64,000 bases of DNA, taken from positions 987,982 through 1,051,981 of the forward strand of contig NC_009976.1 of NCBI RefSeq assembly GCF_000018585.1, in the 5' to 3' direction. This document shows, in pieces, positions 640 through 26,376 of this stretch; position 1 is the stretch's first letter, and the number at the start of each line of letters is the position of its first letter. The DNA is from Prochlorococcus marinus str. MIT 9211 (GTDB taxonomy: Bacteria; Cyanobacteriota; Cyanobacteriia; PCC-6307; Cyanobiaceae). The notes beneath the pieces are model-generated. The model saw only the letters and a list, made by a program, of their open reading frames with translations, was not told the origin of the DNA and ran no database searches. Position numbers and translations under genes: made by a program.

Positions 640-657
640 CCCTTTCTTTTTATACGA

Positions 658-2448
658 ATGAATCGTTCAAAAATTAAAAATAAACCTCCTCTGCAAAGGC
701 TACTTAGAAGTCAAAAAAAACATAAGAAGTTGATATTAGCTGCCATAACCTGTTCAGTTTTAAATAAAATCTTTGATTTAGCGCCTCCTGTTCTAATAGG
801 TATATCTGTTGATGTAGTTGTTCGAGAAGATAAATCCTGGTTGGCTGGCTTAGGCTTTGAAGCAGTTACTTCTCAACTGGCCATTCTTGCCATTTCTTCA
901 TTCTTGATTTGGACAGCCGAATCATATTTTGAATACTTATATGGCGTTCTTTGGAGGAATCTTGCTCAAACAACGCAGCACAATCTTCGAATTCAAGCAT
1001 ATAGCCACATACAAAAGTTAGAGATGTCTTTTTTTGAGTCAGATAGTTCTGGAAGACTTCTGTCAATTTTGAATGATGATATTAATCAACTTGAAAGATT
1101 TTTAGACCACGGAGCAAACCAGATCCTTCAGTTAATTGTGACTGTGACCATAGTTGGTCTTGCTATGACTTATTTAGCACCAGGAGTTGCAATCTTTGCA
1201 TTTGTACCTATACCTTTAATACTTATCGGATCTATAAAATTTCAAAAAGGTCTTGCTCCTAGATATAAAGATGTGAGAGATAAAGCTGGAGATCTAGCAG
1301 CTCGTCTTAGTAACAACTTAGGTGGAATGTTAACAATTAAGAGCTTTGCCACAGAATCATGGGAACTAGAGAGAGTAAATAATGACAGTAATTTGTATCA
1401 AATAAGTAATCAAAAGGCAATTAAATTATCTGCTGCATTTATTCCATTAATTAGATTTGCAATTCTTTTCGCATTTCTTGCAATCCTAATTGTAGGTGGC
1501 TTACAAGCTTGGAAAGGAATAATTGAAATTGGAAGCTATAGTTTCCTTATATTTATTACTCAAAGACTTCTTTGGCCCTTAACTACACTAGGGCATGTTT
1601 TAGATGACTATCAAAGATCAATGGCATCTACAAATAGAGTCCTAGACCTAATAGATACCCCAGTAACAATATCTAGTGGAAGAATAAGGCTTGGTTTAAA
1701 AAGTTTAAAAGGTAGAATAGAGTTTAATAATGTAAGTTTCAAATATAATGATCGCCCACTACTTTTAAATAGGTTCAACCTAAATATTCATGAGGGAAGT
1801 ACTGTTGGAGTTGTAGGACCTACAGGTTCTGGGAAAAGCACATTAGTGAAATTAATACTAAGGCTTTATAAGTTAGATCAAGGCGATATTAAGATAGATG
1901 GAATTCCAATAGATCAAGTAGATCTATTGGATCTACGAAAGTGTATAGCGTTAGTTAGTCAAGAAGTTTACCTATTCCATGGCACAGTAAAAGAGAATAT
2001 TTCTTATGGCAATAAAGCAGCAGGCCATGATCAAATTATCAAAGCTGCCCAACTTTCGGAGGCAGCTGAGTTTATTGAAAAACTACCTGAAGGATATAAC
2101 ACCCTTGTTGGGGAAAGGGGGCAAAAGCTATCGGGAGGACAGTGCCAAAGAATTGCATTAGCAAGAGCAATCCTAAAAGATGCGCCGATATTGATATTAG
2201 ATGAAGCCACAGCATCTGTAGACAATGAAACTGAAGCAGCAATTCAGAGATCCCTCTCAAAGATAACTTCTAATAGAACAACTCTAGTAATAGCGCACAG
2301 ATTAAGTACAGTTAAAAATGCAGATGAAATAATTGTTTTAGACCAGGGTTTAATTAAAGAGAGAGGAACCCACCATTCACTACTAAAAAACAAAGGTATT
2401 TATTTTGATCTTTGGAAAGTACAAGCTGGTTATGAATCAAACGAATAG
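658..2448 (+). CDS. ABC exporter half-transporter (MsbA-like, TMD-NBD fusion)
   Basis: 596 residues, the usual size of a type IV half-transporter that works as a homodimer in the inner membrane. The first 330 or so residues hold the six-helix exporter domain. The nucleotide-binding domain has Walker A GPTGSGKST at about 387-395, the signature LSGGQ at 491-495, Walker B ILILDEA with D515/E516, and the H-loop in IAHRLS near 547. All ATPase motifs are intact. The family exports lipids, peptides or drugs; the substrate cannot be read from sequence. It probably shares a transcript with the two genes upstream and converges with the psbP-like gene. Confidence 0.9.
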   Translation: MNRSKIKNKPPLQRLLRSQKKHKKLILAAITCSVLNKIFDLAPPVLIGISVDVVVREDKSWLAGLGFEAVTSQLAILAISSFLIWTAESYFEYLYGVLWRNLAQTTQHNLRIQAYSHIQKLEMSFFESDSSGRLLSILNDDINQLERFLDHGANQILQLIVTVTIVGLAMTYLAPGVAIFAFVPIPLILIGSIKFQKGLAPRYKDVRDKAGDLAARLSNNLGGMLTIKSFATESWELERVNNDSNLYQISNQKAIKLSAAFIPLIRFAILFAFLAILIVGGLQAWKGIIEIGSYSFLIFITQRLLWPLTTLGHVLDDYQRSMASTNRVLDLIDTPVTISSGRIRLGLKSLKGRIEFNNVSFKYNDRPLLLNRFNLNIHEGSTVGVVGPTGSGKSTLVKLILRLYKLDQGDIKIDGIPIDQVDLLDLRKCIALVSQEVYLFHGTVKENISYGNKAAGHDQIIKAAQLSEAAEFIEKLPEGYNTLVGERGQKLSGGQCQRIALARAILKDAPILILDEATASVDNETEAAIQRSLSKITSNRTTLVIAHRLSTVKNADEIIVLDQGLIKERGTHHSLLKNKGIYFDLWKVQAGYESNE

Positions 2449-2488
2449 ATTAGAGGGCTTTGAAATTACTTAAATCAGGGAAATATTG

Positions 2489-3049
2489 TTATCCATAGAG
2501 GAAATTAAAGGAAGTAATAACACGACCAAATAGTTCTTTGACTCTAGGCCATCTATTCTCATTAGTACTAGCTGCCAAAGTGAATAGGGATCCTCGGTCA
2601 ATAACTACTGTAGCCAACTCATGTCTATCTCTATTAGGAAGATGTATAGAGTACTCAATATCATAAAAGGTATGACCATCAAATTCTCTTTTTTGGGCAT
2701 CTAATAATTCTGCCTGTCTACCAGCACCGTCAGCTGAAAAAACCTGCTCAATTAGTCTCTGCCCAACAGTTTTTGGTCCACCTAGTTCCTCGAGGTCAAC
2801 ATCTTCGTCTAGGTCTGAAACTACAAGACTAAGAGTTTCATCACTATTAATAACATCATGGAAAACAACTTCTGGGCCACCACTAACTGTTACTCGCGTC
2901 CATCCAGTTGGATAAAAGAATCCGTATCGACCATCGTTACTTTGAAAAGCTTCTAATCCAGCTGTTGATGAGGTATTACATGCAGTTACAGAGCAAATCA
3001 ATAGGAATGCAAGAAAAAAGTTTCGAAAAGCTTTTAAAAAATTAGACAT
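2489..3049 (-). CDS. psbP2: PsbP-family lipoprotein (CyanoP-like)
   Basis: 186 residues. The N-terminus is a lipoprotein signal: a basic start, a hydrophobic run and the lipobox VTAC, with the lipidated Cys at about residue 24. The rest has the PsbP fold signature: an early segment with YGFFYPTGW, then VVFHDVI, and a C-terminal stretch including FTLAASTNENRW. Length and lipidation match CyanoP, an assembly-associated, lumen-facing photosystem II protein. Cyanobacteria carry several PsbP-domain paralogs, so the exact one is uncertain. It converges with the ABC exporter and diverges from recR. Confidence 0.85.
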   Translation of the reverse strand: MSNFLKAFRNFFLAFLLICSVTACNTSSTAGLEAFQSNDGRYGFFYPTGWTRVTVSGGPEVVFHDVINSDETLSLVVSDLDEDVDLEELGGPKTVGQRLIEQVFSADGAGRQAELLDAQKREFDGHTFYDIEYSIHLPNRDRHELATVVIDRGSLFTLAASTNENRWPRVKELFGRVITSFNFLYG

Positions 3050-3166
3050 CGATAACCCTCAGTAACAAGTATTATGATAAAAAGTTGATTCAAAAATCTG
3101 AATACTTATTAAATTCTACTTTTGTTGTCAAAGACTGCTTAAATTTGTCTTATTCGCGAAAAACCT

Positions 3167-3766
3167 CTGAACGGCTTCACAAGACCACTTGCCCGTCTAA
3201 TTGATCAATTTGAGCAATTGCCTGGGATTGGCCCCAGAACAGCGCAAAGGCTTGCGTTGCATTTATTGCGTCAACCAGAAGAAAGAATAAAAGCTTTCGC
3301 CAACGCACTGCTAAACGCAAGGAACCAAGTTGGGCAGTGTCAGCAATGTTTCCACTTGACAGAAGGTAACGAATGTGAAATCTGTTTAAACCAAAACAGA
3401 CAAAGAAATTTGATCTGTGTTGTTGCTGATTCAAGAGATCTTCTTGCGTTAGAAAGAACCCGTGAATATAAAGGTCTCTATCATGTTCTTGGAGGGCTCA
3501 TCTCACCAATGGATGGTATAGGTCCTGAATTATTAAACATTTCACCACTTGTAAAAAGAATCACTAGTGAAGAAACCACCGAGGTTATTCTGGCTCTTAC
3601 ACCCAGCGTAGAGGGAGACACAACTAGTCTTTACCTCGCTAAATTACTAAATGCCTTTGTAAAGGTAACAAGAATTGCATACGGACTGCCCGTAGGAAGT
3701 GAGCTTGAATACGCTGATGAAGTCACTTTAGCCCGAGCCCTAGAGGGACGAAGGACTGTAGAATAA
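3167..3766 (+). CDS. recR: Recombination protein RecR
   Basis: RecR works with RecF/RecO to load RecA at gaps. The helix-hairpin-helix segment [11 protein letters not shown], the four-Cys zinc finger (CQQC then CEIC) and the Toprim domain starting ICVVADSRD are all present. Reading back from LPGIGP, the conserved N-terminal helix ([12 protein letters not shown]) is in frame, and the frame is closed by TAA at 3140-3142. Between that stop and the helix there is no ATG, GTG or TTG. I chose CTG at 3167 because it gives the family's usual N-terminal length; ATT codons at 3143 and 3152 are alternatives. A TTG at 3218 is in frame but would remove the helix. The lipA ATG is 16 bases downstream. Confidence 0.85.
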
Positions 3767-22975: not shown

Positions 22976-23060
22976 TATCTGAACATATGATTATTAACAA
23001 GTTTGGTTAGTGCGGCTATGAGCATTAGCATTTGTAGAAAGCAAGTTGTTTGCGGCGACC

Positions 23061-24056
23061 GTGACAAGTTTTATCACCGCAGCTAATACAAAACAAAAGA
23101 ATATTAGCCATGACACTAGAAGGTTAAGGCTAATAAGCGGGACTTCCAACCCAGCTCTTTCAAAAGAAATAGCCCAATATATTGGGATTCCATGCGTTCC
23201 TCTTGTTTCCAAAAGATTTGCAGATGGTGAGCTTTATATCCAGATTCAACAATCCATTAGAGGGTGCGACGTCTTTCTAATTCAACCCACTTGCGCCCCT
23301 GTAAATGACAGTTTAATGGAACTAATGATAATGGTGGATGCCTGCAAAAGGGCTTCTGCAAGACAAATTACGGCAGTCATTCCTTATTACGGATATGCTC
23401 GAGCAGATAGAAAAACAGCAGGAAGAGAATCCATAACAGCAAAACTAACTGCAAATCTTCTTGTCTCATCTGGTGTTGATCGTGTACTCGCAATGGACCT
23501 TCATTCAGCACAGATACAAGGCTATTTCGATATCCCTTGTGACCATATATATGGGTCACCTGTTTTAGTCGATTATCTAGCTACAAAACAATTAGATGAA
23601 GTAGTTGTGGTTTCTCCGGATGTAGGGGGGGTTGCCAGAGCTCGGGCTTTTGCAAAACAAATGAAAGATGCGCCTCTAGCAATTATCGATAAGAGACGCT
23701 CAGCTCATAATGTTGCAGAGAGTCTTACCGTAATCGGTGAAGTTGCCAATAAAACAGCCATTCTTATTGACGACATGATTGATACTGGAGGGACAATTTG
23801 TGCAGGAGCTGAACTACTAAGGAAAGAAGGGGCAAAAAGAGTATTTGCCTGCGCATCTCATGCCGTATTTTCTCCTCCTGCTTATAGTCGACTATCTATT
23901 CCCAATCTTTTTGAACAAGTTATTGTTACTAATAGTATCCCAGTCCCTAATGACCTAAACTTCGAACAATTACAAGTGTTATCTGTAGCGAATATGCTTG
24001 GAGAAGCGATTCTAAGGATACACGAAGAAAGCTCAGTAAGCTCAATGTTTAGGTAG
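23061..24056 (+). CDS. prs: Ribose-phosphate pyrophosphokinase
   Basis: 331 residues from GTG 23061 (V/MTSFITA...), which fits the usual cyanobacterial N-terminus. A TTG at 23046 would add five residues. The enzyme makes PRPP for nucleotides, histidine and tryptophan. LRLISGTSNPALS is the first substrate strand, DLHSAQIQGYFD the flexible loop area, and VVVVSPDVGGVAR then LIDDMIDTGGTI the PRPP-binding sequence. All parts are intact. It converges with the 24099-24533 gene. Confidence 0.95.
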   Translation: MTSFITAANTKQKNISHDTRRLRLISGTSNPALSKEIAQYIGIPCVPLVSKRFADGELYIQIQQSIRGCDVFLIQPTCAPVNDSLMELMIMVDACKRASARQITAVIPYYGYARADRKTAGRESITAKLTANLLVSSGVDRVLAMDLHSAQIQGYFDIPCDHIYGSPVLVDYLATKQLDEVVVVSPDVGGVARARAFAKQMKDAPLAIIDKRRSAHNVAESLTVIGEVANKTAILIDDMIDTGGTICAGAELLRKEGAKRVFACASHAVFSPPAYSRLSIPNLFEQVIVTNSIPVPNDLNFEQLQVLSVANMLGEAILRIHEESSVSSMFR

Positions 24057-24098: not shown

Positions 24099-24533
24099 CT
24101 AATCCTTCTTCTTTAGCTCTTTATCAAGTGCACTTTTAACCTTCTCCTTAATATCATCAGGGACTTTATCTGGGCAAAATTGAATCGCTGCTGTTATCAC
24201 CTGAAATTCAGCTCCAGTATATAACTGTTCTCGGCCCAGCTTTTTCTTGCCTACACTCTTGACTTTGCCTCCATGTTTTCCTTCAAGCACTTGAACATAA
24301 GTACCAGAAGCGATGCCTACAGCTTTGGGAAATTCAATGCCAGCTGTTCTTGCATTACATATATAGCTACCTCCTAAGGTTCTATAAAGAAAAGTATCCT
24401 CGTCCGTAGCGGGCTTATTCTTTTGCTTGTTTTTCGCAGTTGCTGGTAGCTGGAAAAGGCAAAGAAGCGCTAGCAAGATAAAAAGCAGTCTGCCTGAGAG
24501 GCTACTCTGTATTAGAAAAGGATTTTTTTTCAA
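24099..24533 (-). CDS. Exported small protein, function unknown
   Basis: 144 residues. A basic start and a hydrophobic run (about 14-32) ending at LPATAKN form a clear Sec signal. The mature part is Lys-rich with a folded middle (FLYRTLGGSYICNARTAGI) and two cysteines, and the C-terminus is a charged helix rich in K and D. It converges with prs. No known family recognised. Confidence 0.7.
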   Translation of the reverse strand: MKKNPFLIQSSLSGRLLFILLALLCLFQLPATAKNKQKNKPATDEDTFLYRTLGGSYICNARTAGIEFPKAVGIASGTYVQVLEGKHGGKVKSVGKKKLGREQLYTGAEFQVITAAIQFCPDKVPDDIKEKVKSALDKELKKKD

Positions 24534-24588
24534 AAGTGAATTATTGGTCTAAAGCTTTATAAATATACTTGATTGTTGGAAACATCAC

Positions 24589-24852
24589 TTAATTATTTTC
24601 ATGGACTGGTCCAAGTAAACCATAATTCATAAGCTCATGGTAATTCTCGATGATGCTTAATTTCTCATCATCCCAAATATAAATAGCCTTTGATCACCAT
24701 CGATCTTGAAATATCAGTCTCTCTTGTTCTAGTAGTTAAGAGATTTCTTATGTTAATTCTAAGATAACTGCTTTTTCATCTACTTTTCTAATACTAGATA
24801 TACCAGAGAAATTACTTATATAACAATTATTTTGATTTATGTTTATAGTCAA
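24589..24852 (-). pseudogene. Candidate decayed small gene (two fragments in one frame)
   Basis: One minus-strand frame reads like protein in two blocks but carries internal stops. Block 1 runs from a TTG at 24852 to TAA at 24748-24750 (34 codons) and contains FSGISSIRKVDEKAVILEL. After in-frame TAA and TGA codons, block 2 ends at TAA 24589-24591 and contains KAIYIWDDEKLSIIENY and then MNYGLLGPVHENN. Both have the composition of folded protein in a region that is otherwise stop-rich. The retained frame suggests one small gene inactivated mainly by point mutations. Chance cannot be excluded. Confidence 0.4.
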
Positions 24853-24934
24853 AAACAGATTACCTTATAGATGATTCTTTACAATAAGCTAGTTCTTTAT
24901 CAAAAAAGGGAATTTAGATCTTCTACATTAAAGC

Positions 24935-25057
24935 TTATTCTCTACCTAAGAGCCGAAACTCCTTCTCTTGATGCCTTTCCAACTTAACAAACATCTGTAT
25001 ATTTAAGAAACCTTCATCTTGATAAATTCAATCTTTTAATACGCCATAAGTATGAAA
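24935..25057 (-). pseudogene. Second candidate gene remnant
   Basis: A minus-strand frame reads FHTYGVLKD, a TGA at 25028-25030, then IYQDEGFLNIQMFVKLERHQ continuing to LLGRE and TAA at 24935-24937. The post-stop part resembles the C-terminal end of a protein (amphipathic, with charged residues). Only about 40 codons are readable and upstream frames are full of stops. It may be a relic or a very short gene; I see no known family. Confidence 0.25.
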
Positions 25058-25263
25058 TCATATGAATACATTTTTCAAATTACTAAAATCAATCTAGAAG
25101 CATCATTAGATTATATAAATTTCAATTTCTCATACTTTTAATAAGTATATTCCATAAAATAACTTTTAATTAATAGTAGTCTTTTTCATCTTTTTATTTA
25201 GCAAATCCATAAAGTGACTCTTAGTAGCTTAAAGTATTCCTAACAATTTAAATAAATTGGGCT

Positions 25264-26376
25264 TTGGATGAGGAATATGAAAAGGGAAGAAGAAAGCTGA
25301 AGCTTCTTCTTGTTGCAAGTCGGCAACACCTCTCAAGAGGAGATATAAGGACACTTATTAATTTCTTGGAGTCCGAAGTGTCTGGTTTTGAGGTATCCCT
25401 TCAGTTTTCTGATCCTACTGAACAACCAGAAGTGCTTGAGCTTCATCGACTTGTTGCCATTCCAGCTCTAATAAAGATAAATCCCCAACCAAAACAAATT
25501 TTTGCTGGAAGTAAAATTTTTGATCAACTAAAGAACTGGTTGCCAAGATGGGAACAAGAGGGCCTTATTAGTGGTTTAGATCTCAATCTAAGAATTTCAG
25601 ATGCTGATGCTACTAGGACACGCAGAGAGGTTCTTTTAGAAGATGAATTATTAGTTTTGCGACAAGAAAATGAAACTCTCTCAGCACGAGTCGAGTCTCA
25701 AGAAAGACTCTTAAGGATGGTTGCTCATGAATTAAGAACTCCACTATCAGCAGCAGTACTAGCGATACAAAGTCAAGAGCTCGGTCAAATTAACCAAGAA
25801 AAATTTCAAGAAGTTGTCAAAAGAAGGCTTGAAGAGATCGAATTACTCTCAAAAGATTTACTGCAAGTTGGAAGTACAAGATGGGAAGCTTTATTTAACC
25901 CACAAAAGTCAAATTTATCCAATATTACTGCCGAGGTAATTCTAGAACTGGAAAAACTTTGGCTCGCAAGAGGAGTAGGGGTTAACACTGATATTCCATC
26001 TGACTTACCAATAGTTTTTGCCGATCAAAGAAGGATGCGTCAGGTCTTGCTTAACCTGATGGAAAATGCACTCAAATATTCAAGGAAAGGAGACACAGTA
26101 TCAATAACAATGTTACACAGAACTGACCAATGGGTTCAGTGCAGTATTTGCGACCAAGGGCCAGGTATTCCTGAAGATGAGCAACAACGGATCTTTTTAG
26201 ATCGTGTTCGTCTTCCTCAAACGTCCAGTGAGACTCCTGGCTTTGGCATAGGTCTTTCAGTATGTAGACGCATAGTTGAAGTTCATGGAGGAAAGATTTG
26301 GGTGGTATCTGAACCTGGCCAAGGTGCATGCTTTCATTTCACAGTGCCTGTATGGAATGGAGATAACAAGTCCTAG
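25264..26376 (+). CDS. sasA: Circadian output histidine kinase SasA
   Basis: 370 residues from TTG 25264. SasA binds KaiC through its N-terminal KaiB-like domain, then phosphorylates RpaA. Here the KaiB-like domain is about residues 12-100 ([14 protein letters not shown]..., [15 protein letters not shown]). A coiled connector precedes the HisKA domain with the phosphoacceptor H155 in [12 protein letters not shown]. The ATPase part has N, G1 ([12 protein letters not shown]) and G2 ([11 protein letters not shown]) boxes. No other clock gene is in the window. The large upstream spacer may contain its promoter. Confidence 0.95.

Follow-up and report, generated by a model that had tools for sequence, protein, structure and literature searches.

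The question raised by this locus is what the long spacer upstream of sasA in Prochlorococcus marinus str. MIT 9211 represents, the window being the whole 64,000-nt stretch analysed (NC_009976.1:987,982-1,051,981), in whose coordinates the remnant is numbered. The first-pass annotation had singled out this spacer as long and gene-poor, and at 703 bases it is the longest run in the window that lacks a 90-codon stop-to-stop frame, the next being 358. The three minus-strand peptides placed there by the same annotation lie where it had put them: KAIY...HENN ends at a stop at 24589, FSGISS...LELT (24751-24810) at one at 24748, and the frame of DEGFLNIQMFVKLERHQ at one at 24935. The further claim that they share one minus-strand frame holds for the first two pieces and fails for the third, which is in a different frame. 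With a probability of about 0.96 the spacer is a unitary pseudogene, the dead copy of a single gene (labelled gene X here) in its original place between a small 144-aa ORF and sasA, on the minus strand and divergent from sasA (Table 1). This reading follows from several observations: the nearest relatives carry an intact orthologue at this position, the copy here is broken by more than one stop and frame change, its codon-position bias has been lost, and no second, functional copy was found elsewhere in the genome. On the far side of the small ORF, for which Pfam gave no match at E ≤ 1 and NCBIfam no match, lies an ORF that we take to be prs, encoding ribose-phosphate pyrophosphokinase.

Table 1. 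Gene X remnant and neighbouring features, in window coordinates.
Feature	Position	Strand	Basis or remark
X remnant (pseudogene)	24592..25049	-	aligns over 24631-25049 (residues 39-178 of 191), with an open tail to 24592
X C-terminal block (first piece, KAIY...HENN)	24592..24690	-	matches C-terminus of intact X in relatives
X middle block (second piece, frame as first)	24751..24831	-	frameshift-tolerant alignment
X N-terminal-half block (third piece, other frame)	24968..25018	-	frameshift-tolerant alignment
Expected site of X codons 1-38, no longer alignable, and X-sasA spacer	25050..25263		alignment
sasA-like histidine kinase with KaiB domain, intact	25264..26376	+	PF07689 8e-26, PF00512 7.1e-8, PF02518 2.7e-30
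Small conserved ORF, 144 aa, downstream neighbour of X	24099..24533	-	conserved in relatives
prs-like ORF	23046..24056	+	ORF list, loci of relatives

Gene X is intact in the nearest relatives (L003/L155 and L022/L103) with about 190 codons, and its site between the small ORF and sasA is conserved, such that the intact ORF upstream of sasA that the first-pass annotation had looked for in relatives was found in the same place and aligns to the blocks. The C-terminal peptide alone matched 80 of 201 family genomes at E ≤ 1 (host included, many matches being weak), with the best matches outside the host terminating open frames of mostly 180-208 aa. When the L003 X protein was searched by tblastn against three genomes of the genus it was unbroken in two, while the host genome returned two broken matches running through in-frame stops (E 1.1e-18 and 3.2e-4), jointly covering X residues 42-189; at E ≤ 0.01 no further copy was present in the host genome. 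An alignment that tolerates frameshifts, made against a profile built from ten intact X homologues, mapped residues 39-178 of 191 onto 25049-24631 of the window, 59 of 138 residues being identical to L003 X. It scored 166.8, whereas 25 dinucleotide shuffles averaged 26.7 and reached at most 33.1 and the plus strand gave 23.1, in keeping with the earlier proposal that the blocks are remnants of decay. No alignment to X codons 1-38 was obtained in the host by this method; in the relative L155 the gap between X and sasA is 103 bases.

Coding constraint at the remnant has been lost, with the codon-position bias mostly gone and not fully flat. In place of the dN/dS check proposed in the first-pass annotation, changes were compared by codon position, counting the sites in the 138 codons at which the window alone differs from L003 and L022. 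Window-unique changes fell at 33 of 114, 36 of 128 and 32 of 70 eligible sites at positions one, two and three, a ratio of third to first-plus-second positions of 1.6, with the raw counts appearing flat because third positions have fewer eligible sites. The intact copies of X gave ratios of 7.8 for L003 (6/87, 2/94 and 20/58) and 6.7 for L022 (6/87, 6/98 and 29/67), and a sasA control of 370 codons gave 7.1 in the window, 7.7 in L155 and 9.9 in L022, such that the remnant stands at 1.6 against 6.7-9.9 in intact X and sasA. The G+C content of the aligned remnant is 28.9% compared with 32.3% and 33.5% in intact X. The residual third-position excess, being above 1.0, counts against a complete loss of constraint; it fits a trace of the constrained period preceding the loss, and weak constraint persisting on some piece of the remnant is also possible. 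Survival of a small functional part, either translated or regulatory (the C-terminal block, for instance, or an RNA), would be in keeping with the remaining third-position ratio of 1.6 and with the C-terminal block being the best-preserved part, but is very improbable, as first- and second-position changes affect 28-29% of eligible sites in the remnant compared with 2-7% in the intact copies, the remnant has no Rfam family match at the gathering threshold, and the C-terminal block as listed among ORFs of at least 25 aa comes after a stop and lacks its own start. A functional RNA was set aside as a candidate for the window as a whole, the Rfam scan at gathering thresholds returning one tRNA and nothing else.

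The aligned remnant carries five in-frame stops and four frame changes over 138 codons. Draft genomes can contain erroneous frame changes, as may be the case at two other loci (L069 and L076), but that a living X gene has here been split by errors of sequencing or assembly is barely credible given nine separate lesions in 138 codons, a genome held as one contig (1,688,963 bases, estimated completeness 99.99%) and substitutions whose codon-position bias has been lost, which random sequencing slips do not bring about. The decay of two unrelated small genes side by side, to which the spread of the pieces over more than one frame might point, is equally hard to credit since a single open frame in relatives matches every piece in the same order, such that from the earlier suggestion of one or two small genes undergoing loss the loss and the single gene stand and the second gene falls away, the pieces being collinear with a single X.

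As a unitary pseudogene, X would have become dispensable in the host lineage, with disabling mutations then fixed and the sequence drifting towards A+T. The remnant may eventually be deleted, and related lineages without recognisable X would represent the end state. Gene decay here is ordinary in kind, resembling the pseudogene-type loss of dispensable genes in small, streamlined Prochlorococcus genomes as presented in the available part of PMC3940434, and the repeated loss of X is mildly interesting. The locus offers a clear example of a gene decaying in the streamlined genome of a free-living bacterium, with X seen intact, in decay and missing among related lineages.

Matches to X were found in 285 of 334 family genomes (E ≤ 0.001), a count that includes broken copies such as that of the host. 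Across the phylum 24 of 244 genomes matched at the same threshold, all 24 in the host's own family, this number including the host and one other broken match and being one from which more distant relatives could be missed. A short broken match with three stops (E 2.1e-5) occurs in another genome of the family at G029:C8:15880-16089 (L104 and L105 aside) and is possibly a further decayed copy of X.

A census of 80 sasA-bearing loci found X open across the aligned core in 61 and open but truncated at a contig end in three (L052, L060 and L087), with frame changes only, possibly draft errors, in the L069 and L076 loci. X is decayed in three loci (L025, L026 and L039) and not recognisable in ten (L023, L024, L027, L038, L040, L043, L044, L046, L047 and L085), one locus (L029) being left unclassed at a contig end. 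The decayed copies scored 63.9, 58.3 and 83.0, respectively, whereas the best of 20 single-base shuffles for each reached 33.1, 35.6 and 42.1. L046, counted as being without X, scored 39.2 against a maximum of 33.1 in its 20 shuffles and may keep a trace of the gene, while L038 scored 35.6 against a shuffle maximum of 43.7; the remaining eight loci were classed as lacking X by alignment scores without shuffles.

A SasA tree comprising the window and 29 of 81 loci, 30 rows in all, requires seven changes between intact and lost X. The window groups with the intact L155 and L022 in a four-row clade with L023 (98/97), the forks within this clade being weaker (87/87 and 87/77) and the pairing of the window with L155 reaching only 87/77. 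Decayed L025 and L026 stand beside intact L028 (100/98), and decayed L039 groups with L043, which has no X, and with intact L030 and L037 (99/95). As such the losses in L025/L026 and in L039 are separate from that in the window, with the total number of losses being uncertain because the deeper forks of the tree are weak. The position of X in two Synechococcus loci (L056 and L062) as well as in many loci from Prochlorococcus suggests that the gene is ancestral.

The likely nature of the intact product was approached through its predicted structure. The model of L022 X (mean pLDDT 84.7, low for residues 1-23) consists of a lipocalin-like beta barrel together with a helix at the N-terminus, and Foldseek ranked 3bdr (E 1.3e-8) and 4tq2 (E 6.3e-7) first. 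The first of these is titled fatty acid-binding protein-like Ycf58 and is presumably a CpcS, while the second is CpeS of Guillardia theta. Structural comparison gave Z 15.9 for 3bdr (132 residues, 2.0 Å) and Z 15.8 for 4tq2 (144 residues, 2.8 Å), with the next at Z 13.0, a value shared by the DUF3598 protein 2o62 and chloroplast BFA1 5yvf, which have a related barrel but rank under both lyases, with longer chains and 12-16% identity. The likeness of X to the S-type lyases (CpcS/CpeS/CpeU; PF09367) thus lies in the predicted barrel and its two top structural matches, whereas X differs from them in falling below the Pfam cut-off, in its 14-17% identity to the structures and in adjoining sasA. 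Intact X proteins reached 15.9, 18.8 and 13.8 bits against PF09367, under the curated cut-off of 23.3, and the profile-profile match to this family had a probability of 17% (E 0.0014). At E ≤ 0.1 PF09367 was touched by 15 of 19 X proteins and UTRA by three of 19 (best E 0.0027). Sequence searches of solved structures, with a single protein or a profile, gave no match at E ≤ 10, and the NCBIfam search with X returned nothing useful. X therefore shares the bilin-lyase fold yet is not filed as CpeS, the sequence support being weak. Most likely X encoded a small beta-barrel protein of the S-type (CpeS/CpcS) bilin-lyase fold that would bind a bilin or similar ligand, both this ligand and any partner being putative.

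In the host a single canonical CpeS gene and two phycobilisome-domain genes are present and unbroken, the latter two presumably encoding phycoerythrin subunits. Above-cut-off matches to both PF09367 and PF00502 were present in 25 of 25 genomes tried, a chosen sample in which 17 had no X match, seven had X unbroken or unreported as broken and one was the host. Loss of X along with phycoerythrin is thus unsupported, and in this chosen sample the loss of X is untied to the loss of either gene family. X is retained in one genome (G151) with a single phycobilisome-domain match. That X can be lost while cpeS and the phycobilisome-domain genes are kept argues that its job was probably not phycoerythrin chromophore attachment. 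A more specific proposal, that X is an unrecognised picocyanobacterial ligand-binding barrel of the bilin-lyase fold acting in SasA clock output or in the sensing of tetrapyrroles and not for phycoerythrin, retained next to sasA in many lineages and with several independent losses in Prochlorococcus, is speculative and on balance unlikely.

Marine Synechococcus paralogues have been named cpcS, cpeS and cpeU, with X unmentioned in the accessible portion of that paper (PMC2246261), and Prochlorococcus gene losses have been reconstructed from gene content, again with no mention of the X locus in the corresponding portion (PMC3940434). In the parts available of these two papers and of PMC2327270 no description of the X locus was found, nor was any literature found combining sasA, Prochlorococcus and MIT9211. 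What emerges is a conserved gene, as yet unnamed and of bilin-lyase fold, that adjoins the clock kinase gene sasA and has been lost repeatedly.

Two further features of these loci were observed. In L038, a locus without X, an 867-aa ORF (647-3250) lies between prs and the small ORF, which are adjacent in the window; from a motif we take this ORF to be aminopeptidase N. Upstream of sasA, alignment of the stretch at 25229-25247 of the window (around TTAAAGTAT) held across the 19 upstream regions compared, with a TAA within it identical in all 19, and this stretch may be part of the sasA promoter.
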